The notes under the pieces: generated by a model
What the model saw: the letters and a program-made list of their open reading frames with translations, nothing else
The model's database searches: none
Told to the model about the DNA's origin: nothing
DNA from: Anaerolineaceae bacterium
GTDB taxonomy: Bacteria; Chloroflexota; Anaerolineae; Aggregatilineales; Phototrophicaceae
DNA length: 64,000 bases
Assembly (NCBI GenBank): GCA_002699585.1
Contig: PABP01000009.1
Location: forward strand, 669,750 to 733,749
Direction of reading: 5' to 3'
Shown: in pieces, positions 40,766-61,100 of the stretch
Layout of the letters: the number at the start of each line of letters is the position of its first letter
Numbering within the stretch: the stretch's first letter is position 1
Translations under genes and position numbers: made by a program

Positions 40766-41956
40766 ATGGAAAACCTAGGCGGTTCAGTGGATCGCAATCG
40801 TAAACTCAATATCGTTATTTCTTTACTGTACTATTTCCCACATCGCACAGGCCTGACACTGCACGTTCAGAGCATGGCAGAAGAGATGGTCCGGCGTGGT
40901 CATGACGTCACCGTCATCACCGCCCGCTATAGCAACGACCTGCCGCGTGATGAATCCACCCATAATGGGGTGCGTATTGTGCGTTTGTGGGCACCCATCA
41001 AAATTAGCCGCGGCATGATAATGCCGGCCTTCCCCTGGGCGGCGTATTTTGCCATGCGCAATGCCGATATTGTCAGCATCCATACCCCCATGCTAGAAAC
41101 AGCCCTGGTCAGTGTCATCGCCCAGATGGCAGGTGTCAAAGTGATTGCCACCCATCATGGTGACCTTGTGCTGCCCGATGGTCTGCTCAATCGGTTCATT
41201 CGCGGGACGATGTTTGCTATGTACAAATTCATGGCCAAACGTGCCGCTCGCCTGACGGGTTACAGCCGCGATTACGCTGAATATTCCTATTATCTCAAGC
41301 CGTTCCTGGATAAGGTCACGCCCAACTACCCACCGATAGAAATCCCGGAGCCGGATTTAGAGGCTGCCGCGGAAATGCGCCGTTCCTGGCAAAAAGAAGA
41401 TGGCCCCATCATTGGTTATGCGGGGCGCTTTGTAGAAGAAAAACGCCCCGACCTGGCCATCCGCGCTATGGAAACCGTGCTCAAGAAGTACCCTAATGCG
41501 CGTCTGATCTTCGCTGGCGAGTATGACATTCCTTATGAGGGCACCTGGGACGTGCAGCAGCCTTTGGTCAAACAGTATGGCGATACGTTGGAATTCCTTG
41601 GTTTGCTCAAAGGCCGTGAGGAATTGGCGAACTTTTATGCCGCGTGCGACGTCGTTATCTTACCGAGCGATACTGAATGTTTCGCCCTGGTTCAGGTTGA
41701 GGCCATGCTGTGCGGTACGCCAATGGTAATGAGCAATATACCCGGTGGCCGTGTACCTGTTACAGTGACAGGTATGGGCGAACTGGCCCAGCAGGGCAAT
41801 GCCCAGTCCTTTGGCGAGGCGCTCGTCAAAGTGTTGGATAACCCTGAGAGCTATATCAAGTCTCGCGAAGAAATCGAGTCGATCTTCTCGTTTAAAGAGA
41901 CGATGGATACCTACGAAAACCTATTCTATGAATATGCGAGGTCGCAGCGTGGTTGA
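40766..41956 (+). CDS. GT4-family glycosyltransferase
   Basis: A 396-residue GT-B enzyme that transfers a nucleotide-activated sugar in the cytoplasm, often to a lipid carrier. The N-terminal Rossmann domain starts NIVISLLYYFPHRTGLTLHV and holds VIATHHGDLVLPDG. The C-terminal donor-binding domain has PIIGYAGRFVEEKRPDLAI, and DTECFALVQVEAMLCGTPMV, where the EX7E motif binds the nucleotide sugar. AAGG lies 6 bases before the ATG at 40766. It is the first gene of the long co-directional block and overlaps the next gene by 8 bases. The donor and acceptor cannot be read. Confidence 0.9.
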   Translation: MENLGGSVDRNRKLNIVISLLYYFPHRTGLTLHVQSMAEEMVRRGHDVTVITARYSNDLPRDESTHNGVRIVRLWAPIKISRGMIMPAFPWAAYFAMRNADIVSIHTPMLETALVSVIAQMAGVKVIATHHGDLVLPDGLLNRFIRGTMFAMYKFMAKRAARLTGYSRDYAEYSYYLKPFLDKVTPNYPPIEIPEPDLEAAAEMRRSWQKEDGPIIGYAGRFVEEKRPDLAIRAMETVLKKYPNARLIFAGEYDIPYEGTWDVQQPLVKQYGDTLEFLGLLKGREELANFYAACDVVILPSDTECFALVQVEAMLCGTPMVMSNIPGGRVPVTVTGMGELAQQGNAQSFGEALVKVLDNPESYIKSREEIESIFSFKETMDTYENLFYEYARSQRG

Positions 41957-42803
41957 TCAGGCGACAATTGCCCACATGACGCGCAACGAAGCCGATATGG
42001 CTTTCAAAAAGCGCGTACAAACCATCTTCGATTGGGTTGATCCCCAACCGGATAGTGTGGTGCTCGATATGCCCTGTGGGCGTGGCTTCTATCTCAATAT
42101 GTTCCGCTATGTCAGTGACTGTACCATCGTCGGCGCGGAACTCGATTGGCCGATTATCAAGAAAGCCCAGGCCAATATCGGCCATCTGAATTTACCGCTG
42201 CACAACGCCAACCTCTATCATCTGCCTTATGCCGATAACACCTTCGATGCGGTCATCCTGTCGGAAATCTTGGAACACGTCGATGATGATGTCGCTGGCC
42301 TCAAAGAAGCGCTGCGCGTGCTCAAACCGGGTGGTGTCGTCGCCGTGACGGTCCCCCATGCCAATTATCCGTTCTGGTGGGACCCCATCAACAAATCCCT
42401 GGAAACGCTTTTCAACACCCATATTCAGCACGGACCCTTCGCTGGGATCTGGGCCAACCATGTGCGCCTGTATACGATGGAACAACTACGCGAGGCACTC
42501 TTAGGTGCGGGCTTCCTGATTGAAGAAGAACGCTCTTTTACCCATAGCTCGTTCCCATTCATCCATAATCTGGTGTATGGCTTCGGCAAACCCATATTGG
42601 AAGCGGGCTTGCTACCGGGCGACATGGAAACAGCGGCTAATCGCTTAACCTTTGATGACAATGACGGAAGTCCCTGGAACCCGATTAATATCGGATTGCG
42701 GGTCTTTAATTTCTTCGACCGTAAAAATACAATGAATGAACCTGTAGGACGCTCAACGGTAAATCTGGCCATTAAGGGGCGAAAACCACATGTCGGAGCA
42801 TGA
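41949..42803 (+). CDS. Class I SAM-dependent methyltransferase of the glycan block
   Basis: A 284-residue methyltransferase. Motif I is VVLDMPCGRGFYLNMF, motif II GAELDWPIIKKA, and FDAVILSEILEHVDDDVAGL with VLKPGGVVAVTVPHANYPF form the later motifs; the C-terminal half has MEQLREALLGAGFLIEEERS. The GTG at 41949 is the preferred start, because GAGG (41938-41941) is 7 bases upstream; this gives an 8-base overlap with the GT4 gene. The ATG at 41976 is second choice. Position between two glycosyltransferases suggests methylation of a sugar or of a lipid-linked glycan, but this is inference. Its end overlaps the next gene by 14 bases. Confidence 0.88.
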   Translation: MVDQATIAHMTRNEADMAFKKRVQTIFDWVDPQPDSVVLDMPCGRGFYLNMFRYVSDCTIVGAELDWPIIKKAQANIGHLNLPLHNANLYHLPYADNTFDAVILSEILEHVDDDVAGLKEALRVLKPGGVVAVTVPHANYPFWWDPINKSLETLFNTHIQHGPFAGIWANHVRLYTMEQLREALLGAGFLIEEERSFTHSSFPFIHNLVYGFGKPILEAGLLPGDMETAANRLTFDDNDGSPWNPINIGLRVFNFFDRKNTMNEPVGRSTVNLAIKGRKPHVGA

Positions 42804-45630
42804 AGCCGACAACCCAATTGAATCAGAAGACATGCTTGCTGATGATTCACCTGCTGAATCGGATGACAGCCTGGAATCACGCATCGAATCCGCCGTGGCT
42901 GATGCTCGTGCCAACGACTTGCCCTTCGATGAGTTGACGCTGTCGCAGCTTGTGGCGATGTTCCTGCGCGCACCCCGCCGCACATGGGGCGCTTTCGCGT
43001 CGGTGGTCAGGCCGCGTCGTTCGAACGCATCAGCGCCCGATCAGCCTTTGACCGTGTCGGCTCTCCAGCCGGAAAAAGCCCTTGAGCTACGCGATATAGA
43101 TCAACACGCTGCCGTGTTGTCTGCGCGTCCTCGCAACCTGATCGGCGACCGCCGTCAACTGCAACTGGGCCTCTATATCGCTGCTTTGATGCTCGCCTGG
43201 TGGGCATCAGCCAGTCTGCGCACCGTCGCTACGGAAGGCACGGGCTTCATGGTCAGCATTGGCCTGATGATCCTGGCCTTTTTCCTATGGTTGATCGGCA
43301 TGGCGGCTGGCAATTGGGCCGATTTACAGCAGTGGTGGCAAAATCGCGATGGATGGTTGCTGCCCGAACTCGTCACACGGGCGATTGTTGGTGTGATTGC
43401 GCTGATCGGCCTCTCGTTCCTGTTCGATTCAATGGATGAACCCGTTAGCGAGGTGGACCGCATCCTGAACATGGTCGGGCCAGGGTTGGCGCTGCTGGTT
43501 GGGGCCGGCTTGGTCTGGTTGTTGCTGGATGCTATCTTCGCTCGTCTGCGTTGGAGCGCATCTAAACGCAAACGTGAAGAAGAAAAGCCGGATGCTGCCA
43601 CAGAAGGCCCTGCCACACTACAGTTGCCCTGGTATATGCGCATTCATCCGGCGCGCGTCTTGTTGTTGGTCGGCGGGATTGGCTTTAGCGGCCTTGTCTG
43701 GTTCGATACTGATGGCAACAGCTTCCAGACGTTGACTTTCTATTTGTGGCTGGCCAGCATCATTATGATCGCCTTAGCCATTTCACCCGATATGTGGGGC
43801 GTCTGGCGCTGGCTCAAGCGGTTGATGACTGACATCGGCCATTTTCATTGGCGCAAACATGGCTTGGCCCTGCTTGCATTCGTGGTCATTATGGTCATCG
43901 GTGTGCATATGCGCCTGCAAGACCTGCATGAACTACCTGCCGAAATGACCAGCGACCATGTTGAATTGTTGCTCGATGCGGTCAAAGTGCTGAATGGCGA
44001 ACGTGATATTTTCTTCGCCAACAATGGTGGCCGTGAACCTGTGCAGATGTATCTGATGGCGCTGCTGTCTCTGGCCCCTGGATTGGGCATCAACCACAAC
44101 ACGCTTAAATTGCTGGCCGCTTTTGAGTCCATCCTGACGATTCCCTTGATGATATGGCTGGGCCGAGAATTGGCCGGACCGGACCGCCGCCGATTGGGTT
44201 GGTATATCGGTTTTGTGCTGGCGGTTCTCTTAGCGACCAGCTATTGGCACCTGACCATCACGCGGCAGGCCTTGCGCATCGTCTTGATGCCGCTGCAAAT
44301 GTCCCTTGTTTTGATATTTCTGATACGGGCTGTGCGCTACAACACCCGCGCCGACTACATCCTGACGGGACTCATGCTTGGTTTTGGCTTGTATATGTAC
44401 CAGGCCATGCGTATGGTCCCGGTGCTGATCGTCATGGTCGTTTTGTTGGCGGCGTATTTGCGCGGTCGTACCCTGGGCGATTGGTTCCGTTATGGCGTCA
44501 ATCTGGTTATCCTGGCCTTGGTGTCTCTGGTCGTCTTCTTGCCGATGCTGCATTACTCGGTCGAACAGCCGGAGCAGTTCTGGCGGCGTACCGCTGGCCG
44601 TATCTTGGGTGATGACGTTATCCAAGAGGTCGCTGAAGACGGTTCGATCCAGATGCGTGAGCCATCCATCGCCGAGCGCGTCGATGCCTTCAGCCAGAAT
44701 GTGCCGCAGCTCATGAGCAACACGCGCAACGTCCTGATGATGTTCCATATTCGTGGTGATGGAGCCTGGATTAACGGCGTTCCCGGCACACCCGCACTCT
44801 CGACTCATGCCGCTGCCTTGTTCATCCTGGGGTTGGCTGCTTGTTTGGCTCTGGCGCTCAAAACCCGCGACCCGGCTTATGCCATGCTGCCGATCATCGT
44901 GTTGGTGATGCTGCTGCCATCGTCCCTTTCGATTGCCTTCCCTAATGAAAATCCCAGCAACACCCGTTCCAGCGGGGCCATGCCGGCTGCCTTATTGATC
45001 GCCGCCTTGCCGCTCGGCTTGTTCATTGAGCGTACTTTGCAGTCGCAAGCCAGACGTATTGGCGTGCTGTTGGCGGCTGGTTTTACGCTGCTGGTTGTCG
45101 TCGGCTCCTACCTGGAAACGCACGATGTCTACTTCGGCCTGATGCCGGATTCCTATGAAATCAGCACCTTTAATTACAGTGAAGTCGGCCAGATTATGTA
45201 CGGTCAGGCACTTAGTGGCGATGTGCCTTATGGCAACATGTTCATGATTGCCAGCCCCCACTGGTGGGACCATCGCGCGGTCGGTCTGGATGCCGGAATT
45301 GAGGGAATTTGGCCCAATGGCGTGTATGACTATGATGGGACCGACGATTTGACGCGCTCTGTGGACTATCTGCCGCACTTCATTCGGGATGCTCTTATGC
45401 GTAGTGATCGCTTCGCCTTTGATCCGAACAGCGATATTGAGATTTTCTATAACGCGACGGATGAAGTAACGGCCAATCAACTACAAGCCTGGTTCCCGCA
45501 AGGGCGTGTGACTTATTACGACTCGCCCCATGAGCGCCGCAAATTCTACCGTTTTACGATTCCGGCACTCGGCCTGGATGCCGTCAACGCATTCCTGACC
45601 GAAAACCTGCCGTTTAGTCCAAGCGGTTAG
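42790..45630 (+). CDS. GT39-like multi-pass membrane protein (946 aa)
   Basis: A long acidic cytosolic N-terminus (about 1-115), a first group of about six membrane helices (about 120-345) and then the GT39 core (about 360-800). The first outer loop of the core reads LPAEMTSDHVELLLDAVKVL (about residue 390), a Chloroflexota variant with Asp but His in place of the following Glu; NNGGREPVQMYLMALLSL follows, as in that subgroup. An outer C-terminal domain (about 800-946) ends it. Likely it moves or transfers polyprenyl-linked sugars; the substrate is unknown. ATG at 42790 lies inside the end of the methyltransferase gene, so the two are translationally coupled. Confidence 0.8.
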   Translation: MSEHEADNPIESEDMLADDSPAESDDSLESRIESAVADARANDLPFDELTLSQLVAMFLRAPRRTWGAFASVVRPRRSNASAPDQPLTVSALQPEKALELRDIDQHAAVLSARPRNLIGDRRQLQLGLYIAALMLAWWASASLRTVATEGTGFMVSIGLMILAFFLWLIGMAAGNWADLQQWWQNRDGWLLPELVTRAIVGVIALIGLSFLFDSMDEPVSEVDRILNMVGPGLALLVGAGLVWLLLDAIFARLRWSASKRKREEEKPDAATEGPATLQLPWYMRIHPARVLLLVGGIGFSGLVWFDTDGNSFQTLTFYLWLASIIMIALAISPDMWGVWRWLKRLMTDIGHFHWRKHGLALLAFVVIMVIGVHMRLQDLHELPAEMTSDHVELLLDAVKVLNGERDIFFANNGGREPVQMYLMALLSLAPGLGINHNTLKLLAAFESILTIPLMIWLGRELAGPDRRRLGWYIGFVLAVLLATSYWHLTITRQALRIVLMPLQMSLVLIFLIRAVRYNTRADYILTGLMLGFGLYMYQAMRMVPVLIVMVVLLAAYLRGRTLGDWFRYGVNLVILALVSLVVFLPMLHYSVEQPEQFWRRTAGRILGDDVIQEVAEDGSIQMREPSIAERVDAFSQNVPQLMSNTRNVLMMFHIRGDGAWINGVPGTPALSTHAAALFILGLAACLALALKTRDPAYAMLPIIVLVMLLPSSLSIAFPNENPSNTRSSGAMPAALLIAALPLGLFIERTLQSQARRIGVLLAAGFTLLVVVGSYLETHDVYFGLMPDSYEISTFNYSEVGQIMYGQALSGDVPYGNMFMIASPHWWDHRAVGLDAGIEGIWPNGVYDYDGTDDLTRSVDYLPHFIRDALMRSDRFAFDPNSDIEIFYNATDEVTANQLQAWFPQGRVTYYDSPHERRKFYRFTIPALGLDAVNAFLTENLPFSPSG

Positions 45631-45684: not shown

Positions 45685-48600
45685 ATGAGATTAACAGGTA
45701 ACAACGGCGATACAGCGGCGGATGCCATTGGCGTCGTCCAACCCAAACGCAATCGCCAGGCCCTCATTGTCCTCCCGCTGATGCTCCTGGTTGTTTTGCT
45801 AGGTGGCTATTTCAGATTCAATGGCCTCAATTGGGATGATTTCTCAGCCATGCATCCCGACGAGCGCTTCCTGACGATGAATTCGCTGCCGCTTATTGGT
45901 GGTCGCCTGGAACTTACGCCAGATAGCAATGTGCCCCCCCAGAGCGTTATCGCGACCTTTGCCAATGCCAGCTACTACGATGGGGCCAGCTTAAGCTTTG
46001 ATACCACATCACGTATTGGTGTCGTTGAGGACACCTTCGCGGTAGATGCTGTTCGTTGGACCTATGGTCTTGACCGTATGATGACCTATTCGGATGCGAG
46101 TACGGCGGCCAGAGCACTGGCTGATGGCGAAATTGCCGCCTTGGTGATGGACCAAACAGCCGCTTCGGTTTTCTTGATTACCGATGACGCGACCGGGGCC
46201 GTCTTTCTCAATATCGAAGGCACGCCCCAGGTCCAGATTATTGACACCCTATCGTCAGAAGAAATTCAGCAGGCGCACTGCTTGGAGCGCTACCCAGAAA
46301 CAGGCGGTATTGGCGGTTACTTCGATACGCAGTGTTCGCCCTATAATCCGCACAATGCCAGCACGGGTTACTATGCTTATGGAACGCTGCCCGTACTGAT
46401 GGCCCATACGGTCAGTGCGTTTGTGCAGCAGCAGGACATCGCTGGATCGGACATCTTTGACTTTGAAGGTGGTACGCTCATTTGGCGCTTCCTGTCGGCC
46501 TTCTTCGATGTGGGTAGCATCATTGTGATCTATTTCATTGGCGCGCGCACCCATAATCGCTGGGTCGGCCTGTTCTCGGCATTGCTGTATGCTGCCGCAC
46601 CCCTGGCGATTGAAAAAGCCCATTTCGGTACAGTCAACTCGATCACAGCCTTCTTCGTCATTTTGGCGATCTGGGCGGCGGTCGGTGTGCAGCAGCGCGG
46701 TAAGCTGTTTTATTACGCCGCCTTTGGCATCGCACTGGGTGCCGCGGTCGCTGGACGCATCAATACCGCGCCGTTAGCTGGGGTAGTCGTCCTGGCCGCG
46801 ATGGTGCAGATGGTGCCCTTCCTGGATCGTAGCCTGGATTGGGATGAGCGCCAGCGTGTCGCGTCCCAGGCTACCTTCGGCCTGATTCTGGCTGCGGTGC
46901 TGTCGCTGGTGACGTTCCGCATTGCCAACCCTTATGCCTTTACTGGTCCGGGTTTATTGGGCCTCGGCATCAATCCGCGCTGGCTAGCAGACCTCGGTAG
47001 TTCGCAGTTTAACGTCAGTGGCAACATGGATGCTGCTCCCAACTGGCAGTGGGTCGGGCGTCCACCGTATCTCTATCCTCTCAAAGATATGATCCTGTGG
47101 GGCATGGGCATCGGCATGGGCATTATGGCCTGGATCGGCTGGGCCTGGAGCGGCTATCGTCTGTTGAAAGGTCGTACGGGGTCATTAGCTAATTTGCTGC
47201 CCTTCGTCTGGGTGACGGTCTACTTCGCCTGGATCGGTCGTCTATGGGTCATGACCATGCGCTATTATCTGCCATTATACGCGCCCTTGGCGCTCCTCGG
47301 CGGCTGGGCGATCTATGCCGTATGGCGTGCCTCTCGTGAGCGCGATCTGCCACTTGTTCGTGGCATTACGTTGTTTTTCGGCGTTTTTCTGGCTCTGATC
47401 CCTGCTTACTATCTGGTTACGGCAACCGCTTTGACGACCACGGCCATTGCAGCGGCTGTCGTCGCTATTTTGCTAATTATTCTCGCCCTGATACCCGGCG
47501 CACCGCGCGTGCGCGCCTTTGGCCTCGGCACTTTCGTGCTGGCCTTCACGCTGCTGTGGGGCCTGATGCACAACAACATTTACAACCACCAGTTGACGCG
47601 CGTCCAGGGTAGTGTCTGGGTATGGGAGAACATCCCCGGCGATTTCTCGATGCAGGTGGATGGTGCGCCCGAAGGCACGCCCCTGATAAATATCGTGCTG
47701 CCCAATTCCCGCCCGGAGTCGTCCATCACACCGGGCGATATGCTCTCGGCAGCATCCCAGTTGATCCGAGAAATACCGTCTTTCGTGGAGTTTGTCGCGC
47801 CTGCAAGCGGGACCATCAGCAGCGTCTATAGTCCGCATATCGGTGATCCCTTTAACTCGCCGGAAGACGAAGTACTGCAAATCTCGGTAGCATCGACCGA
47901 TGATCTCAATCAGCTCGCCATCGTGACGGTTACCCAGGACTTCCCACGGGATAATCACATTCTGGGTGATGCCTATACCTTCCAGTTTGATCCACCGTTC
48001 CAGGTGGAGGAGGGCAAGCGCTATACCTTCAAAGTGGAAGCCCTGGCTGGCAACATCCTGACCTCTGGTGCAGTCATCGCGACCGAAGCCCCCTGGGATG
48101 ATCGCTTGACGACCATCAAAGCCTGCGAATATCCACAGGGCATCACCCTGGCTGATGATCCCCCGCCAGGATTGGTGGGCTATGACGAATGCAATGGCCG
48201 TCAATCCTGGTATGGGCTGGTACAGTCCTATGACATTGACCTGTCGTATCCGATTGACGAAACCTACAAGCGTGACATGATGCTCAATGCGTTGGAAGTT
48301 TCCGAGTATATCGGTATAACCAGCAACCGCTTCTATGACACCCTGTCGCGCAATCCTATCCGCTGGCCGATGTCCAACCGTTACTATGACGCGCTGTTCA
48401 GTGGTGAATTGGGCTTTGATCTGGTCGAAGTTCGTCATGAGCAGTACGAGTTTGGCCCCTTGAGCGTGTCGGACCAGTATTTGCCGATCTACGACTCGCC
48501 GCAGTGGCTTAACGAACTCGAACCTGACGAAGCTTTCCACGTCTATGATCATCCGACCGTGTTCATTTTCAAGAAGCGTGATGATTACGATCAGGCTCGC

Positions 48601-51600
48601 GTGGCGCAAATCCTGAACGATGTTTCTATTGTGCGCGTCGAAGGGGCCTATGCTCAACCTGGCGAACTGGGGTCAGCCGTCGGTAACGTGGCTTACTGGT
48701 CCTCATTAGAGGCTGACGAAGCGTCAACGGCCCTCATGCAGCGCCCGGAATTCCGCGAAATTAACGAACAGGGTGGCACATGGTCACAGCGCTTCGATAG
48801 TGACAGCATCTTCAACTCCAATCAGATCGTCGGCGTGATCGGCTGGTGGTTGTTGCTGTTCGTGATCGGCTTGGTGACGTGGCCGCTGCTCTATACCGCT
48901 TTCCCGACTCTGGCAGATCGTGGCTATGCTTTTGCCAAGATTGTCGGCTTGCTCATTCTCGCCTGGGCCGCCTGGATGCTGGGCAGTGTCGGCGTATTGG
49001 CCTGGTCGCAGGGGGGATTGTTCCTGCTGCTGCTCATCCTCACGCTGACCAGTGCCTGGTTCGCATGGCGCCAGCGCGCCAGCATGATTGCCTTTATCAA
49101 GGCCCATTGGTCGCGCATCCTGTGGATCGAAGTACTCACGATCATTCTGTTTGTGATATTCATTGGCGTACGCCTGACCAATCCCGACCTGTGGCACTTC
49201 TCCAAAGGTGGGGAAAAGCCGATGGACTTCGGTTATTTCAACGCGGTTTTGCGCTCGACGGTCTTCCCGGCCTATGATCCTTGGTACGCAGGCGGCTATA
49301 TCAATTACTATTACTTCGGCTTTGTTGTCGTCGGCTCCCCGGTGCTGATGCTCAAATTGGTTCCGGCTTTTGCTTACAACCTCATCGTGCCGACCTTGTT
49401 CGCTCTGACAGGCATTGGTGCGTTCTCGGTTGCTTTCAACATCGTCGCCGCCATGCGTGACCGTCGTCGCACCGCCGAGGATGGCGATCCCAATGCCCCC
49501 GCGCCGACCCGCCGAGCCAGTTCCTGGTTAGCCGGGATTGTTGCGCTGCTGTTGTGTGTGGCCGTCGGCAACCTGGATACAATCCGTGTGTTGGGTAACG
49601 GCATCGCCAGTATGGGCGGCTACCAGCAGTATGACAGCATCGAATCCTACTACCGCGATCAATATTTGGATCAGTATGGCGTTCGCCAGGATACCAGCGG
49701 CACGTTGGTGCTGCCCATCGAATACGAAACGGAGCTTGCCAACCGCCTGAGCAGCAACAGCATCGTGGATCGCCTGAGTTACGAGGTCACCCAGGGCGTC
49801 AACTTGCTGACAGGCTTCTCAACGGGTATTAGTAAGCTCGCGGAAGGCCAGCCCTTGCTGATTGGCAGTGATCGCTGGTATTGGGGACCCTCGCGCGTCC
49901 TCAACGAATTCCCGGTAAGCAGTGGCAACGCCATCACGGAAATGCCGTATTTCACCTTCCTATATGGCGATCTTCACGCCCATATGATTAACATGCCCGT
50001 GATGCTCTTCGCGCTGCTGTTCGTCTTCAATGAGGTGTTCCTGGCAGGCAGCCGCGCCCGCCGCAATTTGGATCGTGCCTTAGCAATTGGTCTGGGGGCG
50101 CTGGCCATCGGTCTGATGACGGCCATCAATACCTGGGATTGGCCTTCGTTCATGGTCTTTGCGACGGTCGGCCTGGGCTATGCCTGGTGGCTGCGCTGGC
50201 GCACCATCAGCCGCCATTCGTTGGTGGATATGCTCCTCAGCATAGGTGGCTTCCTGTTCGTCGCTCGTTTCGTGGCCATCGCCCATACGAGCTGGTACGC
50301 GGCTATCTACCAGAGTGCGGAGCTTTACCTGGGGCGCAAGACGCCGCTGTGGGCTTACTTCGATATTCACGGCCTGTTCTTGCTGCTGATCGTTTCCCTG
50401 CTCATCTGGGAAACAGGCCGCTGGTTTCGTTCGGTACACGTTAAGGCGTTGCGCGGCAAGGGCTTCTGGCTGAGCGCTGGCGCGCTTGGTGCAGGCGTCC
50501 TGACCGCCGTTGGTCTCATTCTGGCGATGATGGGTTATCAGGTCGCCATTATCGTCATTCCGCTGGTGATCTGGATTGTCGCTTTGTTCTTCCGGCCAGG
50601 GCAGTCGCGCGTTATGCAATATGTGCTGGTGCTGGCAGGTTTCGCCCTCGCCCTGACGCTGGCCGTGGAAATCATCACCATCACAGGCGATATTGGCCGC
50701 CAGAACACGGTCTTTAAGTTCTATTTGCAAGTTTGGTTGATCTTCAGCGTGGTCGGTGGGGCAGCCTTCTCCTGGCTCTTCACCAGCAGCGACTACTGGC
50801 GTGCGGGCTTACGCTTCCTATGGTATATCCCGTTGATGACCCTTTTCGTGATCGCTGCCATGTTCCCCATTACAGCCACCCGTGCTCGCACTCTGGACCG
50901 CTACAGTCCGTCATCCGGTTTTTATCACTCAGTGCTGCCGGAAGAAACCATCGAAGATCTGGCTGAGTTGTACTTCGTGACGCCGGAATGGCTCCGCGAG
51001 GCCAACAATATGCCTGATGATGCCCAACCCGCTATGGGCGATACCATCACCATCATCCCGCCCAGTGACCTGAACGAGCCAGCAACCACGCTCGATGGCA
51101 TCGCCTACATGCAGTATGCCGCCCACCATCCACTGAACTCAGAAGCGGCGGTGCTCATCAATATGGATCACGATTACAACATCATTCGGTGGTTGCAAGA
51201 AAATGTCGTCGGTACCCCTGTCATCATTGAAGGTCGCAATCCCGCCAGTGAATATACCTGGACAGGGCGTATTGCCATCAATACGGGCTTGCCCAGTGTG
51301 CTCGGCTGGAACTTCCACCAGCGCCAGCAGCGTACCTTCGACCCATTGCCGACCATGGTCCAACTGCGTGAAGGCAACATCAATTACTTCTATGACACCG
51401 CCGATATTGCCGGGGCAGTTCGCATCCTACGTACTTACGATGTCAGGTACATCATCCTAAGCACCTACGAACGCATTTGGTCTACTTCAGCGGGATTAGC
51501 CAAGTTCGATATCATGGTCGACATGGGCCTGCTGAACAAAATCGAGGTAGATAGCAATGCCTTCATCTATGAAGTCAACGAGCAGGCGCTGGCTGATTTC

Positions 51601-51927
51601 GCCCTGGCACAGAACGCTTTTTTCGATGTGCTGCGCCTTGACGATGCGATTTTCAATCCAGGTTTGGATGATCTGACATTTGCACAAACTATCGACTCAA
51701 CGCTATCGGCACTCGGCAAGACGGAATCCGATGTGCTGGCAGAAGCAACCGCGACCCTGGATCGTTTCAATGCGCAATATATCGCGGTACCCAGCGCCCT
51801 GATTGAGCAAACCGAGCCACAGATTGCTTACTTTATCCAGCAATTGGCAGAGCAGGGCGTCTTGGTCCAGCTTGACGAGAACGCGGGTACGGTACGCTAT
51901 CAAGTAGACACATCGGCATTAGGTTAG
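45685..51927 (+). CDS. Giant GT39-DUF2298 (Chlor_Arch_YYY) fusion with LysM-like insert (2080 aa)
   Basis: Residues about 1-660 form a GT39 core (about eleven membrane helices; SAMHPDERFLTMN at about 57 gives the intact Asp-Glu pair; GARTHNRWVGLFSALLYAAA follows) with an outer domain (about 660-1040). A second membrane unit (about 1045-1730) is DUF2298: PTLADRGYAFAK at its start and INYYYFGFVVVG (about residue 1200), the Tyr-rich name motif. Residues about 1745-1793 (HSVLPEETIEDLAELYF... PAMGDTITIIPP) match a LysM repeat, in an outer loop or tail. The remaining 290 residues are soluble. The ATG at 45685 follows GAGG. The following gene is a stand-alone copy of the second unit. Probably links lipid-carried sugars to the envelope; the LysM part suggests peptidoglycan contact. 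Confidence 0.85.
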   Translation: MRLTGNNGDTAADAIGVVQPKRNRQALIVLPLMLLVVLLGGYFRFNGLNWDDFSAMHPDERFLTMNSLPLIGGRLELTPDSNVPPQSVIATFANASYYDGASLSFDTTSRIGVVEDTFAVDAVRWTYGLDRMMTYSDASTAARALADGEIAALVMDQTAASVFLITDDATGAVFLNIEGTPQVQIIDTLSSEEIQQAHCLERYPETGGIGGYFDTQCSPYNPHNASTGYYAYGTLPVLMAHTVSAFVQQQDIAGSDIFDFEGGTLIWRFLSAFFDVGSIIVIYFIGARTHNRWVGLFSALLYAAAPLAIEKAHFGTVNSITAFFVILAIWAAVGVQQRGKLFYYAAFGIALGAAVAGRINTAPLAGVVVLAAMVQMVPFLDRSLDWDERQRVASQATFGLILAAVLSLVTFRIANPYAFTGPGLLGLGINPRWLADLGSSQFNVSGNMDAAPNWQWVGRPPYLYPLKDMILWGMGIGMGIMAWIGWAWSGYRLLKGRTGSLANLLPFVWVTVYFAWIGRLWVMTMRYYLPLYAPLALLGGWAIYAVWRASRERDLPLVRGITLFFGVFLALIPAYYLVTATALTTTAIAAAVVAILLIILALIPGAPRVRAFGLGTFVLAFTLLWGLMHNNIYNHQLTRVQGSVWVWENIPGDFSMQVDGAPEGTPLINIVLPNSRPESSITPGDMLSAASQLIREIPSFVEFVAPASGTISSVYSPHIGDPFNSPEDEVLQISVASTDDLNQLAIVTVTQDFPRDNHILGDAYTFQFDPPFQVEEGKRYTFKVEALAGNILTSGAVIATEAPWDDRLTTIKACEYPQGITLADDPPPGLVGYDECNGRQSWYGLVQSYDIDLSYPIDETYKRDMMLNALEVSEYIGITSNRFYDTLSRNPIRWPMSNRYYDALFSGELGFDLVEVRHEQYEFGPLSVSDQYLPIYDSPQWLNELEPDEAFHVYDHPTVFIFKKRDDYDQARVAQILNDVSIVRVEGAYAQPGELGSAVGNVAYWSSLEADEASTALMQRPEFREINEQGGTWSQRFDSDSIFNSNQIVGVIGWWLLLFVIGLVTWPLLYTAFPTLADRGYAFAKIVGLLILAWAAWMLGSVGVLAWSQGGLFLLLLILTLTSAWFAWRQRASMIAFIKAHWSRILWIEVLTIILFVIFIGVRLTNPDLWHFSKGGEKPMDFGYFNAVLRSTVFPAYDPWYAGGYINYYYFGFVVVGSPVLMLKLVPAFAYNLIVPTLFALTGIGAFSVAFNIVAAMRDRRRTAEDGDPNAPAPTRRASSWLAGIVALLLCVAVGNLDTIRVLGNGIASMGGYQQYDSIESYYRDQYLDQYGVRQDTSGTLVLPIEYETELANRLSSNSIVDRLSYEVTQGVNLLTGFSTGISKLAEGQPLLIGSDRWYWGPSRVLNEFPVSSGNAITEMPYFTFLYGDLHAHMINMPVMLFALLFVFNEVFLAGSRARRNLDRALAIGLGALAIGLMTAINTWDWPSFMVFATVGLGYAWWLRWRTISRHSLVDMLLSIGGFLFVARFVAIAHTSWYAAIYQSAELYLGRKTPLWAYFDIHGLFLLLIVSLLIWETGRWFRSVHVKALRGKGFWLSAGALGAGVLTAVGLILAMMGYQVAIIVIPLVIWIVALFFRPGQSRVMQYVLVLAGFALALTLAVEIITITGDIGRQNTVFKFYLQVWLIFSVVGGAAFSWLFTSSDYWRAGLRFLWYIPLMTLFVIAAMFPITATRARTLDRYSPSSGFYHSVLPEETIEDLAELYFVTPEWLREANNMPDDAQPAMGDTITIIPPSDLNEPATTLDGIAYMQYAAHHPLNSEAAVLINMDHDYNIIRWLQENVVGTPVIIEGRNPASEYTWTGRIAINTGLPSVLGWNFHQRQQRTFDPLPTMVQLREGNINYFYDTADIAGAVRILRTYDVRYIILSTYERIWSTSAGLAKFDIMVDMGLLNKIEVDSNAFIYEVNEQALADFALAQNAFFDVLRLDDAIFNPGLDDLTFAQTIDSTLSALGKTESDVLAEATATLDRFNAQYIAVPSALIEQTEPQIAYFIQQLAEQGVLVQLDENAGTVRYQVDTSALG

Positions 51928-54594: not shown

Positions 54595-54704
54595 GGTCTT
54601 GATCGGCTGACCGTGTATAGTAATGTGTAGAGCTAGCGAACAAGCGCTGCGCACGATGCAGCCGGTCGATTTGTACGGCATTTGACGAGGTGATTAGGAA
54701 CGAT

Positions 54705-56690
54705 ATGCAAGCTGTCAGCACACAACCGAGCGCACCAGCCACCGCCAAACAGCCACCGTTGACCATTTCCCTGGAAGTGGTGGCTTACGCTGTCCTGATC
54801 GTCGCGGCATTGCTGCTGCGTATCGCGGACCTGGATAGTGTCCCAATGGCCCAGTCAGAGGCCCAATCGGCCATGCGTACCCTGCAAATCGTGGCACCGA
54901 ATACGCCTGGGGATGCGCCTGCACCGGATAGCCCCCTGCTGTTTGTGACGCAAAGTCTGGCTTTTTCTTTCATGGGGGCGAGCGAATTCTCTGCGCGTTT
55001 GGGCAGTGTTTTTGCCGGCATGCTCCTGTTGCTGCTGCCGATGCTCTTCCGGCGCTATCTGGGTCGGGAACGCACGTTCCTGCTGACGCTATTGCTTGCG
55101 GTATCACCGACTGTCTTTGTGACCACGCGTCAGGCTGACGCTTTTATCTGGACGGCTGTTTTCGCCATGGCAACCGTCGCGTTTGTCTGGCGCGCCTGGT
55201 CAGACGCCAGTCGTGCTAATGGCCCCTCATCGAATGTGCTGTGGTCGGCGGCCAGTGCTGCTGGGTTGGTCTTCCTGTCAGATTCTGGTGGCTCGTTGCT
55301 GGCGCTGATTCTGGCAGTGGCTGCTTGGTTGGCCCTGTGGTGGAGCGCGATCAAGGCCCCTGACGAAGTCGATGAATCCGGCGAAGTCCTCTTCCAGAAT
55401 GCCCGTAGCTGGCTGCAATCCTTACCCTGGCGCCCCATGCTGCTGACCACAGCAGGCGTCACAATCCTGGCTAGTACGCTCTTTATGGTCTATCCGGCTG
55501 GCCTGGGCCATGTCGGCAATATGCTGGCTAACACGCTGATCGGCTTCATCCGGCCCGCCGTAGAAACAATGCCCGCAGGTCTGGGATTTGCCAGCCTCAT
55601 CGTCTATGAACTGGGTTTTGTGGTCTTAGCGCTGGTTGCTGTTGTGAGCCTGATGCAGCGTGGACGCTTTGGCTATGTGCAGCGCTTCATGCTGATCTGG
55701 ATGCTGCTGGCGATGGCTGCTGGCTTGCTTTACCGCGGGGCAACACCTGCTTTCGCGATCTGGGCTGTTGTGCCGATGGCCTTCCTCATTGCGGATTTTG
55801 CTGTTAGCCTGTTCGCCAATTTGCCCGTCGTGGTCTATTGGACCGAGGGGCTGGTAGAGCAGGATGCAACAGGTCAGCGCTATGCCTGGATGAAGTATGC
55901 TATTAGCCTGCTGATTATCGGCGCGTTTGTGGTCGTGTCTGTTCATTTTCAGGAAATAGGCCGTGGATTGCAGCGCGTTCCAATTGGGGCCAGCCTTGGT
56001 GATGCCTTGGCAACCCTGCGCGAGCCACTCATGGCGGAGTTCCGCTATAGCTTGCTATTCTTCTTTGTGACGTTACTGTTCATCGTCATCAGCCTGATGC
56101 TTGTCGCCAGCATTTGGGGCAATCGCAGTATGTTGCAGGCTCTGGGGATTGGCTTGTTGGCCTACGTCATTGGCACCAGTATCGGCGGTGGCTGGCAAAC
56201 AGCGGTTGTCCATGCTGATAACCCGGCGGAATACTGGTACAGCACCGTCACGGAGCCGGATGCCTATTTACTTCGCGAGACACTTTACGAAGTTTCACAG
56301 CGAGAAACATCCGGTGAACCATTGATTAGCATCGTCGCTGTGCGTGGGACTGCCCTGGAACAAGATGGCCTGGTCGGTTGGCTGCTGCGCGACTATCCCA
56401 ATACCGAATATGTCGGCACTTTTGCGGAAGCCGCCCGTCATCCCATCGTCCTCTTACCGGAAGTCAATTTTGACATGCTCAGCCTGGGTGGCGATTATGT
56501 CGGCCAGCCTTTTGAAATCTTGCAGCCGAGCTTAGCCTACGATGTCAATGTAGTCGATTCAGTCGCCTGGATGGGTCAACGCCGCCTGCGCTCGCTCATT
56601 GGCGAGCAATATAGCGTATCCTTATGGCTACGTCAGGATGTCTACGATGGCTTGCCGCAGGAAGAGCGTCAGCGCCTGGGCATCGATTAA
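54705..56690 (+). CDS. GT39-like membrane protein lacking the acidic pair (661 aa)
   Basis: Start at ATG 54705, with AGGA (54695-54698) 6 bases upstream; the frame opens at a GTG at 54690. About eleven membrane helices (about 25-500) with the GT-C arrangement, e.g. FSARLGSVFAGMLLLLLPMLFRR and PTVFVTTRQADAFIWTAVFA, followed by an outer alpha/beta domain. At the position of the donor-binding Asp-Glu of GT39 enzymes it reads PMAQSEAQSAM (about residue 47): the Glu is kept, the Asp is not. It may be inactive as a transferase or use another residue. Next gene is the ECF sigma factor, 84 bases downstream. Confidence 0.7.
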   Translation: MQAVSTQPSAPATAKQPPLTISLEVVAYAVLIVAALLLRIADLDSVPMAQSEAQSAMRTLQIVAPNTPGDAPAPDSPLLFVTQSLAFSFMGASEFSARLGSVFAGMLLLLLPMLFRRYLGRERTFLLTLLLAVSPTVFVTTRQADAFIWTAVFAMATVAFVWRAWSDASRANGPSSNVLWSAASAAGLVFLSDSGGSLLALILAVAAWLALWWSAIKAPDEVDESGEVLFQNARSWLQSLPWRPMLLTTAGVTILASTLFMVYPAGLGHVGNMLANTLIGFIRPAVETMPAGLGFASLIVYELGFVVLALVAVVSLMQRGRFGYVQRFMLIWMLLAMAAGLLYRGATPAFAIWAVVPMAFLIADFAVSLFANLPVVVYWTEGLVEQDATGQRYAWMKYAISLLIIGAFVVVSVHFQEIGRGLQRVPIGASLGDALATLREPLMAEFRYSLLFFFVTLLFIVISLMLVASIWGNRSMLQALGIGLLAYVIGTSIGGGWQTAVVHADNPAEYWYSTVTEPDAYLLRETLYEVSQRETSGEPLISIVAVRGTALEQDGLVGWLLRDYPNTEYVGTFAEAARHPIVLLPEVNFDMLSLGGDYVGQPFEILQPSLAYDVNVVDSVAWMGQRRLRSLIGEQYSVSLWLRQDVYDGLPQEERQRLGID

Positions 56691-56774: not shown

Positions 56775-57377
56775 ATGCCAGAACATGATGACCAACAGCA
56801 AATGCCGGACGAAACCATTATCGCGCGATGTCTGGACGGAGATCAGCAAGGCTTCACAGCCTTGTATGAGCGCTATGCCGCCAGTGTCTACCGCCTGTGC
56901 AATACGCTCTTAAACGCGCAGGAAGACGCTGAAGACGTCGTGCAGGAGTCTTTTGTCTATGCTTTTAAGAACATCGACCGTTTTGATAGCAACAAGGCGA
57001 CTTTCAAGACTTGGCTTTTTACCATTGCTGTCAGCCGCTGCCGCAATATGTACCGTCGTAAACAGTTCCCACTAGTGGGGCTGTCAGCAGCCTTGCAGCT
57101 TAAGCTACCATCGACCAGTGGTGACCATCCTGAAACAGCATTGGCCCAGAGCAACGTCCGCGATGCTATTGAAGAAGCTGTCCGGGCCTTACCGCCGCAC
57201 CTGCGCGAGCCGTTGGTCTTGCGTTATGCGCATGGCTTGACGTACCGTGAAATTGCTGAAATCATGGACTGCCCTCAAAAAACGGCTGAGAGCCGCGTCC
57301 GGCTGGCGCACAAAAAGCTGCGCAAAACCATGCAAGGGCAGGGCCGCTCTCTTTTAGAAGAAATCCTGCTGATCTGA
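56775..57377 (+). CDS. ECF-type RNA polymerase sigma factor
   Basis: A 200-residue sigma-70 of the extracytoplasmic-function group. Region 2 (about 20-85) has FTALYERYAASVYRLC, the -10-recognising helix EDAEDVVQESFVYAF, and NKATFKTWLFTIA. Region 4 (about 140-190) has LPPHLREPLVLRYAHGLTYR followed by a helix-turn-helix (EIAEIMDCPQKTAESRVRLA). Region 3 and region 1 are absent, as expected for the group. It directs polymerase to envelope-stress promoters and is held by the anti-sigma factor encoded 81 bases downstream. Lying between glycosyltransferase genes, it may control this block; its promoter motif was not found. Start at ATG 56775. Confidence 0.93.
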   Translation: MPEHDDQQQMPDETIIARCLDGDQQGFTALYERYAASVYRLCNTLLNAQEDAEDVVQESFVYAFKNIDRFDSNKATFKTWLFTIAVSRCRNMYRRKQFPLVGLSAALQLKLPSTSGDHPETALAQSNVRDAIEEAVRALPPHLREPLVLRYAHGLTYREIAEIMDCPQKTAESRVRLAHKKLRKTMQGQGRSLLEEILLI

Positions 57378-57458
57378 TGGATCTTGATTGACAAACAATT
57401 TTTGATGAGATGACCTGTACCCAGTGATCTGTACCAAGTTTGAAGAAATGCTTGACCG

Positions 57459-58052
57459 ATGAAATCTTTCAGATGCCAGTATGTCCAAAGTCGTATCGCC
57501 GCTTTCGTCAATAACGAATGCACCGAGCGTGAGCGTCGCATAGTCGGCCAGCATCTGGACCATTGCCCGACCTGCGAAGCCGCTTATCATCATCAGCGCA
57601 GCTTACAGCGCGAAATGCAGCGTGATTTGCCGCGCATGGGGTCTGCTAATTCTGCCCAATTGGGCGCTATCTGGCAGCGTATCGAGCAAGACCTGGCTGC
57701 ACCCGCGCCCCAGCCTGCCGCGACCACGCTGCGTCTGCCATCTGGCTCCTGGCACTATGGATTAGTGGCTGCGATGGCTTTCGTCCTGCTGACGATGGCC
57801 TGGTTTGCGGATAGCAACTCGGTTTATGCCGCGCTGCCGTCGCAGCCCGCCCCGCGTGATGTCGTTGAACAGCGCGTGGTGACGCCTGACCGCCTGGCCA
57901 ATCAGGACGAGGACAGCGTAGCGATTGCCTTCGCTACCGAGTTCGTCGTCGTTGGCCAGCAGACATCGGCTGCTAATGAGGGCATTTTGCATAATACGCC
58001 CCGGCAAACGCCGGAACCCAACACAACAACGGATGCCAGTCGGAGCCAGTGA
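57459..58052 (+). CDS. Zinc anti-sigma factor (ZAS type), membrane-anchored
   Basis: A 197-residue protein with an N-terminal zinc-binding anti-sigma domain: Cys6, and His32-x3-Cys36-x2-Cys39 in QHLDHCPTC. One membrane helix (about 100-117, HYGLVAAMAFVLLTMAWF) and an outer Pro/Thr-rich tail of 80 residues follow. Its topology lets an outside signal reach the sigma factor bound inside. It is coupled in position with the ECF gene upstream and is followed 76 bases later by the Agl23-NHL gene. The tail has no known sensor domain. Regulated intramembrane proteolysis or zinc/redox release are the usual mechanisms for this type. Confidence 0.87.
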   Translation: MKSFRCQYVQSRIAAFVNNECTERERRIVGQHLDHCPTCEAAYHHQRSLQREMQRDLPRMGSANSAQLGAIWQRIEQDLAAPAPQPAATTLRLPSGSWHYGLVAAMAFVLLTMAWFADSNSVYAALPSQPAPRDVVEQRVVTPDRLANQDEDSVAIAFATEFVVVGQQTSAANEGILHNTPRQTPEPNTTTDASRSQ

Positions 58053-58128: not shown

Positions 58129-61100
58129 ATGGTGCAATCCAACACCCCTCAGAGCGAACCCACGCGCAGTAACGGCCTGTCAAACTGGCTGTCCGGGCGT
58201 TTGACGCTCAACTGGGAAGTCGTGATTCTACTGGTGATCCTGGCGCTGGCCATCTTCACCCGCTTCTACATCCTGGGCGAGCGCGTCATGAGCCATGACG
58301 AAAGCCTGCACACGCGCTTTTCCTATACGCTCTATACCGAAGGCAACTTTGAGCATACGCCGCTCATGCATGGGCCGATTCTGTTCCATGCGACGGCGCT
58401 TTCCTATGCGCTCTTTGGCGTCAATGACTTCTCTGCGCGGATTTATGCGGCGGTATTGGGCGTGCTGCTGGTGATGTCGCCCATCTTGTTCCGGCGCTGG
58501 CTGGGACGATGGGGCACCATCATTGCCTCCGGCTTGTTGCTTATCTCGCCTTTGATGATGTACTACAACCGCTATATTCGTCACGATACGCCCTCGATGC
58601 TCTTTGCGGTCATCATGCTCTGGGGCATTATGATGTACCTCAGCGGCCCCGCCAATCAGCGACGACGAGCGCACTGGCTCTATATCATTGCCGCTGCCAT
58701 GATCCTCAACCTGGGTTCAAAGGAAACCGCCTTTATCTATATTGCCATTTTCGGCATCTTCCTGGCGATTTACTGGTTCGTTCGTCTGGCACAGCATTAC
58801 CGCAATATTCCTGGCAAGCCAGTCTTTAACTTCGCCATAGTCGGTATTTTGCTCGGTGGGGTACTTTCCCTGGGGATGTACATCCTGCTAGACATCATCC
58901 AGTTTGACTTGCTGCCAACTGATACCTCGACCACCTTCGCCATGCTCGCGCCCGGTCAGCAGGGCACACTCATCCTGTGGACGCTGGCGATTGTCGCCTC
59001 AGTCGTCATCATGATATTGGGTACGCTGCTCTGGGCCTATCGTGGCGCGATCAAGCGCATTCCCTGGCGCAACGTGCTCGTGCTGATTGGCTTTGCGCTG
59101 ATTGTCTGTTTCTCGCTGGTCGTTTTTGAAGAAATTTCACATACCTCACCCAGCAGTGCCGACCCCGTCGCTCCTGCCGTTCCCGGTGAAGAAGTCGCCG
59201 AAGAAGCGGTCATCTCCACCTTCCGCTGGACGCCGATGATTGGCGTGTGGGTGTTGGCCCTGGGTGTGATCGCCTTTGCGGTCATCAACCGCCGCCGTGG
59301 TGGGGCAGAAGACGAACTGATTGACGAGGAAACGGGCGAGCCAATCAAACAGAAGCGCGGTCGTGGCTTCTTCGAGATGATGGATGCCTTCCCGGAGTTT
59401 GATCTGCTCATTGTCATCGGTACCTTGATTTTGCCCTGGGCGACCGCCATCGTGCCTTACCTCATGCACGGCAACACCACCGATTACATCGCCGTCGCGG
59501 AGTCCCTGCCGACGGTTGTGTACAACATCATCTTTGCCATTTCTGAAATTGGCACGCCCGATCAGGTGGGGCTGTTTATCGTCAACGCGATGGCCTTGAT
59601 CCCGTTGGTGGCGGTTTCTGTGACGCTGGGCCTTTTGTGGAACTGGCGGCGCTGGTTGGTGGCGGCGGCCATCTTCCATGCCATATGGGCCTTTTTCTTC
59701 ACGACCGTCTTCACCAACATTCCCGGCCTGTTCACGGGCATGATCCAAAGCCTCGGTTACTGGCTGGAACAGCAAGGCGAACGTCGTGGCAGCCAGCCGC
59801 AATACTACTACCTGCTGGTCGTGATGCCTTATTACGAGTTCCTGCCCGTCATAGGTGGCGTTCTGGCCATGTTCGCTGGCATGATCGTCTACTGGCGTCG
59901 TCGCCTGGGCCTGGATAATCAGCGCCGCCAGGTCAAGCAGTTGGCCATGCAGGCTCAATCACTGGAACTGGATGAAGAGGCTGATGAACGCCAAGTTCAA
60001 CAGGTACAGCGTCGATTATTCGGCATGCAGCAGCAGCTTGATGATTCCAACCGCCTGACCGAAATGCCATTCTTGCTGTTCTGGTCCTGGCTCGGTGTAT
60101 TGAACCTTGTTGGCTACAGCCTCGCCGGGGAAAAAATGCCCTGGCTTGGTACGCATCTCACGCTGCCGCTGATTATCCTGACAGCCTGGTTCCTGGGACG
60201 CATCATCAGCCGCATCGACTGGCAGGTGTTCCGCCAACGTGGCTGGATCGTCCTGCTCATCCTGCCACTTTTCCTGATTACCTTGCTACAGATCATTGGC
60301 CCGCTGGTCGTAGGCCGTGGACCCTTCCAGGGCCTGACACAGGTTCAACTGTCCCAGACCTATAGCTGGTTGGCTTCGCTGGCGATTGCTGGCGGCGTAT
60401 TCTATGGTGTTTTCCGAGCCGCTCGCCGCGTCAGTTGGGCGCACGTCCGCCAACTGGCGGCAGTGGCTGTGTTTGCGCTGCTGGCCATCGTGACCTTCCG
60501 CTCAGCCTGGATCGCGTCGTTCATCAACTATGACTATGCTAACGAATTCCTGGTCTATGCCCATGCAGCCCCGTCGGTCAAGCGTGTCCTGAACGACATC
60601 ACGGAAATGAGCCATCGCATCACTGATGGCAATGATCTCAAGTTTGCCTACGATAACAGCGTGTCCTGGCCCTATAGCTGGTACTTCCGTGACTTCCCGA
60701 ATGCGGTCTTCGTCGGCGAGAACCCGACCCTGCAAAACCTTGAAAATGCCGCCGTTGTCATCGTCGGTGATGACAAGTTCGGCATCGTTGAACCCATGTT
60801 GGTCGAGCGGTATCAGCGCTTCCGCTACATTCGCATGTGGTGGCCGATGCAAGAATACTTCTATCTGACGCCCGACCGCCTGCTGAACCTGTTCGACTTC
60901 TCAGCCGATAATGTCCAGGCCGCGCAATACCGTGAAGGTATCTTCGACATCTGGTGGCAGCGCGATTACACCACCTATGGCCTGACGATGGGCAAGGACT
61001 TCTCCACAACGAACTGGCCTGTTTCTGATGCCATGTATGTCTACGTCCGCAAGGATTATGCCTCCCAGATTTGGGAATATGGTGTTGGTGATGGGGCCGT

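Follow-up and report, generated by a model that had tools for sequence, protein, structure and literature searches.

A widespread fusion of GT39-type and DUF2298 membrane modules in Chloroflexota as a candidate two-module glycosyltransferase

Why a single open reading frame (ORF) should carry both a GT39-type membrane module and a complete DUF2298 module, the latter from a family that databases list either as a subfamily domain or as an uncharacterised membrane protein, is the question raised by a 64,000-nucleotide stretch of an Anaerolineaceae bacterium (assembly GCA_002699585.1, contig PABP01000009.1, positions 669,750 to 733,749; hereafter the window). The gene at 45685..51927 on the forward strand is one uninterrupted frame of 2080 residues, in which the GT39-type module is followed by a full DUF2298 (Chlor_Arch_YYY) module. 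The preliminary description of this locus suggested a working partnership between the two, one possibly supplying or flipping the donor that the other uses. Based on structural models, conserved residues and gene neighbourhoods, we propose that the chain is probably a two-module membrane glycosyltransferase, in which a PMT/ArnT-type enzyme of the GT-C fold class and a DUF2298 enzyme of the same class would carry out successive transfers on the outer face of the membrane.

In a Pfam scan, DUF2298 (PF10060) covers residues 1091-1687 and the entire profile (1-488 of 488) with 333.7 bits, against a cut-off of 27.8, and the C-terminal half is a full member of TIGR03662 (Chlor_Arch_YYY), scoring 405.9 bits against a cut-off of 300.25 and carrying the YYY motif of that family at residues 1208-1210. 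The GT39-type half had no match in the whole-chain Pfam scan at E 0.01; once residues 1-1001 were scanned alone, PMT_2 (PF13231) was found with 36.9 bits (cut-off 26.1), and the fusion scored 37.9 bits when the whole genome was searched with this profile. PMT and PMT_2 are families with the numbers GT39/GT83. A Kyte-Doolittle scan detects 23 hydrophobic segments, while the models contain 28 helices of at least 15 residues in two membrane parts, 12 within residues 1-640 and 16 within residues 1036-1737. The uninterrupted ORF and the profile matches bear out the presence of two full membrane modules in one chain, and the initial estimate of about 25 helices was a fair one. The TIGRFAM note on TIGR03662 describes single-copy proteins together with long ones in which two copies follow an additional N-terminal region; the N-terminal region of the fused DUF2298 proteins is here assigned, from the predicted structure, as a PMT/ArnT-like module.

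The fusion is widespread. A PF10060 match is present in at least 194 of 300 Chloroflexota genomes, and among 71 genomes drawn evenly from the phylum 50 match at E 0.001, 47 of them strongly (best E 2.2e-81 or lower); the other three (G017, G026 and G034), which hold weak partial matches only, were set aside after inspection. In 39 of the 47 strong-match genomes DUF2298 lies in a frame of at least 1389 residues, part of which were opened: the 20 long-frame regions, picked by frame length and spread over families, all encode both modules in one ORF, with a second DUF2298 copy behind the first in two. A long frame is accordingly the usual state in Chloroflexota, and the earlier statement that each module is normally its own protein does not hold. 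Within the family of the window, 40 of 41 genomes match the fusion query at E 0.001 (some in fragments only), a genome of the same genus contains the fusion as one match across residues 12-2062, and 18 fusions from other families share 28-36% identity with the protein of the window. Fused ORFs were also found in all of the 80 named loci, which are the best 80 of 555 confirmed relatives and thus selected for likeness to the fusion; these amount to 81 ORFs from different assemblies, some cut by contig ends. Both doubts attached to the preliminary description, a fusion unique to this genome and a sequencing artefact joining two genes, are removed by these ORFs, and an explanation by sequencing or assembly error or by a one-genome event, for which nothing was found, has a negligible chance of being right. 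The proposed partnership between the modules is likely, and the breadth of the fusion strengthens it. From the 81 fused ORFs, 70 that were complete and at least 1500 residues long were aligned and 56 were retained below 62% identity; the N-half alignment (54 rows) comprises 53 of these, three very long ones being dropped, and the window, while the C-half alignment (80 rows) comprises the same 53, 25 stand-alone DUF2298 proteins from the named loci and the two of the window.

The N-terminal half was modelled with a predicted local distance difference test score (pLDDT) of 92.1 and a predicted template-modelling score (pTM) of 0.91, and was compared with known structures using VIA, which re-ranks only the top 1000 chains of Foldseek. 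Its matches are Pmt4 (Z 27.8, root-mean-square deviation (rmsd) 3.5, 396 residues), Pmt1-Pmt2 (Z 27.7) and ArnT (Z 27.1). H57, P58, D59 and E60 are identical in all 54 aligned N-halves, as are R268, R412 and R526, and the HPDE motif presumably provides the catalytic acidic pair; at E 0.01, 52 of the 54 rows match PMT_2. The predicted half thus combines a GT-C fold with an acidic pair in the first outer loop, as in PMT_2 proteins, and shares with PMT and ArnT the fold, the PMT_2 match and the invariant DE pair, although it differs from them in the added second module and in a large extracytoplasmic domain of its own. The first outer loop also bears an insert resembling one lobe of a periplasmic amino-acid-binding protein (5t0w_A; Z 12.4, rmsd 2.3, 92 residues), which gave no Pfam match at E 0.1. 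Of 33 rows compared, 13, among them that of the window, have 112-128 residues in this loop region, whereas the remaining rows have no more than 24.

The DUF2298 half was modelled by AlphaFold with a pLDDT of 87.2 and a pTM of 0.87. Foldseek returned five matches at E of 0.001 or less, namely three to the C-mannosyltransferase DPY19, one to a chain of the human oligosaccharyltransferase (OST)-translocon complex and one to AglB. In VIA the top row is the yeast OST chain 8agc_A (Z 18.7, rmsd 7.5, 479 residues aligned), followed among others by ALG12 (17.4), Pmt4 (15.8; rmsd 3.9, 351 residues), ArnT (15.6), AftB (15.5) and DPY19 (15.0). The first 35 rows listed span Z 18.7-10.9, where values up to about 13 may be unspecific for helical proteins according to the note of the tool, and all are enzymes of the GT-C class. 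Rows 36 and 37 are isolated C-terminal domains of archaeal OSTs (Z 9.2 and 6.6), and the first unrelated row has Z 5.1, with lower values thereafter. Because of this clean gap and the one-class list, the DUF2298 half is read as a predicted GT-C fold. Pfam may already place DUF2298 in its GT-C clan, in which case the fold assignment is not new. A transporter fold was considered and rejected, since among 50 Foldseek rows transporter chains occur only at E of at least 0.18 and probability of at most 0.16, with VIA Z of at most 5.1.

The conservation of polar residues in this half is pronounced. E1177, E1419, D1429, H1431, H1433, R1672, N1674 and K1678 are invariant in all 80 C-half rows, fused and stand-alone alike. 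In a wider set of 52 DUF2298 modules, which takes in one archaeon and one clostridium, H1431, R1672, N1674, R1895 and E1929 are identical throughout, E1419 and H1433 are kept in 51, K1678 in 50 and D1429 in 49, and the three tyrosines of the NYYYFG motif are Y in 50, 52 and 50. E1177, where the first outer loop begins, is E in 50, D in one and a gap in one (the archaeon, where the position is not covered); its predicted location agrees with that of the conserved acidic residue that opens the first outer loop in GT-C enzymes. The DLHAH motif is a possible metal or catalytic site. Since the model matches GT-C structures and these polar residues are near-invariant, DUF2298 is more likely a second transferase than a mere supplier or flipper of the donor: of the earlier interpretation, the partnership stands, while a purely auxiliary role of DUF2298 is not supported. 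Handling of lipid-linked donors would more plausibly fall to the Agl23-family neighbours described below.

A non-catalytic role, in which DUF2298 has the GT-C fold yet serves the GT39 half as a flippase, a presenter of substrate or an assembly factor that delivers lipid-linked sugar to it, is nevertheless conceivable and we regard it as rather improbable. One argument for it comes from the genes that accompany DUF2298, which is linked to and co-occurs with TIGR03663, a family named by NCBI after Agl23. For Haloarcula hispanica, Agl23 is reported as the putative flippase that handles glucosyl- or galactosyl-phosphate-dolichol; a yeast rft1 deletion was suppressed by it, and after purification it translocated Man5GlcNAc2-PP-dolichol across liposomes (PMC11182771). 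The GT-C fold is also found in a chain of the glycosylphosphatidylinositol (GPI) transamidase, and DUF2298 has no sequence match to a solved transferase. However, fused and stand-alone proteins alike retain almost unchanged E, D, H, R and K residues, a pattern that suits an active site better than a scaffold, and the OST-like globular domain of DUF2298 (3vu0_A; Z 9.2, rmsd 2.5, 120 residues) likewise speaks against a passive partner.

This same domain, together with OST catalytic chains as the top VIA rows, raises the question whether the chain is a dedicated protein glycosyltransferase that moves a finished glycan onto surface proteins, as PglB, AglB and Stt3 do. Compatible with this is that STT3 (PF02516) has no match in the genome of the window at E 0.001. 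The chain itself has no STT3 match in the Pfam scan at E 0.01, and 7 of the 71 genomes contain STT3 above the cut-off (highest score 32.3 bits). ALG12, Pmt4 and ArnT nonetheless score only about 3 Z or less below the top row, the fold is silent on the type of donor, and the DUF2298 profile matched no Stt3 among PDB sequences; we therefore hold this explanation to be improbable. DUF2298 further departs from Stt3, AglB and PglB, despite the alignments to 8agc_A and 3vu0_A, in lacking profile similarity to them, in three additional helices at its front and in its own DLHAH and YYY motifs.

The orientation of the two modules can be approached through loop charges. Lysine and arginine make up on average 25.5% of the loop preceding the DUF2298 core against 5.5% of the following loop; differences around the three extra helices are smaller, with 10.9% ahead of the first and 12.4% and 7.6% behind. 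These values are consistent with a DUF2298 module whose N-terminus lies outside, although the signal is strong at the pre-core loop only, and together with the model they suggest that the three extra helices ahead of the core provide an outer N-terminus continuing the outer domain of the N-half.

The genes around the fusion form a conserved cluster (Table 1). Counts refer to named fusions with enough flanking sequence, neighbours being assigned either from a profile match or from a BLAST score of 45 bits or more against the genes of the window. A stand-alone DUF2298 gene lies within 2.5 kb downstream of the fusion in 52 of 66 loci (median distance 12 bases; L082 misses by a 74-base overlap), and in 48 of 61 a protein of the 946-residue type is encoded no more than 2.5 kb upstream. 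Over a distance of up to 8 kb, 52 of 58 loci have relatives of the two Agl23-like genes of the window on the downstream side, and 44 of 55 have a GT4 gene on the upstream side. The 1389-residue protein passes the TIGR03663 cut-off of 126.25 bits with 241.8 bits and has an NHL match of 108.5 bits, so that a full member of the Agl23 family stands in the cluster of the fusion; the 666-residue protein fails this cut-off. For the 946-residue protein, matches to PMT_2 and GtrII reach 20.9 and 21.4 bits, both under their cut-offs. A gene table of Chloroflexi bacterium 44-23 also places DUF2298 beside PMT2 genes (PMC8756737).

Beyond the cluster, TIGR03663, searched in the 71-genome draw at E 1e-20, is above its cut-off in 47 genomes, exactly those with strong DUF2298; by group code, 23 families have both, nine have neither and none is mixed, although these counts are not independent, the genomes being related. 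With the curated DUF2298 cut-off, which counts 49 genomes, agreement is 69/71, and at E 0.001 it is 68/71. Among 14 control genomes, both families occur only in Haloferax volcanii and Methanosarcina acetivorans, on which two the co-presence in archaea rests, and at E 0.001 TIGR03663 matches two more. The genome of the window also holds 36 PMT_2 matches and one GtrA/DPMS membrane-domain match, a content compatible with lipid-linked sugar chemistry that points to neither donor nor acceptor.

On this basis the preferred reading, the two-module glycosyltransferase, can be set out as follows. The N-terminal half would be a PMT/ArnT-type GT-C enzyme, and the DUF2298 half a second GT-C enzyme, presumably catalytic, of the kind with an OST-like C-terminal globular domain. 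Both cores appear to be oriented alike in the predicted topology, so that both presumed active sites would face outward. Polyprenyl-phosphate sugars, the likely donors, would reach the outer leaflet probably with the help of the adjacent Agl23-family proteins, and the two modules would make two successive transfers, building or handing over a cell-surface glycan. Successive outer-face transfers are proposed because of the cluster and co-occurrence with TIGR03663 combined with the GT-C fold, and the fusion would amount to a GT-C pair, of the sort seen in Pmt1-Pmt2 or EmbA-EmbB, whose members are covalently joined. A stronger form of this proposal, in which DUF2298 is an unrecognised active GT-C family working only with an Agl23-type protein in Chloroflexota and archaea, and the fusion an assembly-line enzyme whose two unlike active sites act one after the other, outside the cytoplasm, on a single glycan that is lipid-linked or bound to the surface, is put forward tentatively, as something we would sooner doubt than expect.

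Several results weigh against the two-module glycosyltransferase. The Foldseek TM-scores for DUF2298 are low (0.18-0.28), the best VIA rows have high rmsd (7 to 9 Angstrom for the OST chains), and the DUF2298 profile gave 0 matches among PDB sequences at E 1, Stt3 included. When the cores and ectodomains of both halves were trimmed and their profiles compared, the probabilities were 0.3, 2.9 and 5.7, none significant. The N-half matches chain U, PIG-U, of the GPI transamidase (Z 15.5); the GT-C fold thus also serves proteins that carry out no transfer, and, given the flipping by purified Agl23, proteins of the DUF2298/Agl23 system may themselves be flippases. At E 1e-10, every one of the 47 two-family genomes and 12 of the 24 others match PMT_2, and the co-occurrence may reflect, though only in part, genomes rich in GT-C-type enzymes. 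The fusion is also not obligatory, as eight of the 47 strong-match genomes (G012, G018, G021, G035, G036, G043, G049 and G051) have DUF2298 in shorter frames only; regions were opened in six of them. Around DUF2298 genes listed in short frames only, ten regions were fetched, of which six (L161, L162, L163, L167, L168 and L169) contain no N-half in the stretch retrieved, one (L166) holds the fusion and three hold a separate N-half. The six regions and the pattern of PMT_2 sharing slightly lower our confidence in the two-module glycosyltransferase.

On sequence homology between the two halves the comparisons gave mixed results: besides the three non-significant trimmed pairs, the profiles of the full halves aligned over a single stretch, 145 columns long, where the cores end (probability 70, E 4.1e-5), which counts in favour of the two-module glycosyltransferase.

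The three separate N-halves bear on another explanation, that the fusion merely couples expression and stoichiometry and that the modules act independently in one pathway, with no hand-over of substrate. They lie 0.3 kb (L160), 6.7 kb (L164, cut by the region edge) and 5.9 kb (L165) from the DUF2298 gene, which in L160 is of the stand-alone type, a fused-type copy not being seen there. In the tree of 52 DUF2298 modules (a quick method, SH-aLRT support only, unrooted, with several long branches meeting), one group with support of 99 unites 22 fused modules with two split modules and two second copies and leaves out the other 26, stand-alone, modules, the 862-residue stand-alone protein of the window falling in a different part from the fused copies. 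In the similarly quick and unrooted N-half tree, the split N-halves fall among the fused ones, L160 with L049 at 100 and L164/L165 less surely at 88. The simplest reading of these trees is a single old fusion with later splits. While such split forms suit independent modules, the long frame has been retained in 39 of 47 genomes despite the low identity between the fusions of different families, and we regard independence as possible and on the whole unlikely.

Among known systems, Pmt1-Pmt2 and EmbA-EmbB likewise place two GT-C modules side by side, and both complexes appear among the structural matches; each consists of two chains of one family, whereas the fusion unites two unlike families in one chain. 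The resemblance of the cluster to the Agl23 system of Haloarcula hispanica rests on the NCBI family name; TIGR03663 is a family other than DUF2298, and its member in the window bears NHL repeats. S-layer proteins of that archaeon bear N- and O-linked glycans (PMC9943897). A literature search found no paper on a GT39-DUF2298 fusion, most subscription papers being outside its reach; the term DUF2298 itself occurs in PMC8756737 and PMC12828279. The analysis turns DUF2298, catalogued as uncharacterised, into a testable proposal, that of an outer-face glycosyltransferase in the pathway of Agl23. If true, it would imply a surface-glycan machinery common to Chloroflexota and some archaea, and the chain, with its two different GT-C modules, would lend itself to studies of hand-over between membrane glycosyltransferases.

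Table 1. Features of the fusion gene and its neighbours (positions in the window).
Feature	Position	Strand	Evidence
Fusion gene, 2080 aa, PMT_2/GT39-type module and DUF2298 module	45685..51927	+	ORF and profile matches
N-module, residues 1-1001, predicted PMT/ArnT-like GT-C core and extracytoplasmic domain	45685..48687	+	model and VIA
HPDE motif, residues 57-60, first extracytoplasmic loop	45853..45864	+	N-half alignment
First-loop insert, residues 81-192, with the shape of a single lobe of periplasmic substrate-binding proteins	45925..46260	+	VIA
Predicted extracytoplasmic domain at the C-terminus of the N-module, approximately residues 650-990	47632..48654	+	model secondary structure, charge pattern
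C-module (DUF2298), residues 1036-2080, with three additional helices at the N-terminus, a GT-C-like core and a globular domain at the C-terminus	48790..51924	+	
GT-C-like part of DUF2298 module, residues 1133-1972	49081..51600	+	VIA
NYYYFG motif, residues 1207-1212	49303..49320	+	alignment
DLHAH motif, residues 1429-1433	49969..49983	+	alignment
LysM-like insert in DUF2298 half, residues 1748-1790	50926..51054	+	profile match
Globular C-terminal DUF2298 domain, residues 1814-1965, resembling its counterpart in an archaeal OST	51124..51579	+	VIA
GT4 glycosyltransferase, first gene of cluster	40766..41956	+	profile, cluster counts
S-adenosylmethionine-dependent methyltransferase ORF	41799..42803	+	
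946-aa membrane protein, directly upstream of fusion	42790..45630	+	weak PMT_2/GtrII
Stand-alone DUF2298 protein, 862 aa	52006..54594	+	PF10060, TIGR03662 scans, tree
666-aa Agl23-like protein	54690..56690	+	TIGR03663 74 bits
Extracytoplasmic function (ECF)-type sigma factor	56775..57377	+	
zf-HC2 protein	57459..58052	+	29.4 bits, cut-off 22.2
1389-aa Agl23-family protein (TIGR03663), C-terminal NHL repeats	58129..62298	+	TIGR03663, NHL

The LysM-like insert scores 16.6 bits in the whole chain and 25.0 bits, against a cut-off of 20.9, as an isolated piece of 102 residues, and among 33 rows an insert of this length is confined to the window and one row of the same genus. Chains with one N-half and two DUF2298 copies are encoded at L040:8100-15593 (-) and L050:6890-14932 (+), with 2498 and 2681 residues, respectively, and frames of about 2500-2870 residues holding DUF2298 occur among the matches listed for other genomes. 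Three genomes (G008, G044 and G052) have several frames of about 950-980 residues with weak partial DUF2298 matches, perhaps representing a distant related family.

The ECF sigma factor and the zf-HC2 protein, a probable anti-sigma factor, form a pair inside the glycan cluster (56775-58052), and 18 relatives of the sigma factor were labelled in the 80 named loci. The record of L082, titled Bacteroidetes bacterium, bears a cluster of the Chloroflexota type and is probably a mislabelled or mixed metagenome-assembled genome. Two plasmid records match DUF2298. In that of Halarchaeum, where DUF2298 lies at the end of the record, no glycosyltransferase is present among the 14 features listed, and an alpha-amylase-family hydrolase and a polysaccharide deacetylase are encoded about 9-12 kb away. 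In that of Pseudobutyrivibrio (L154), a stand-alone DUF2298 gene is found near genes for a GT2 protein, a glucosyltransferase-domain protein, an O-antigen ligase and a sugar epimerase, which represents a surface-polysaccharide context outside Chloroflexota.

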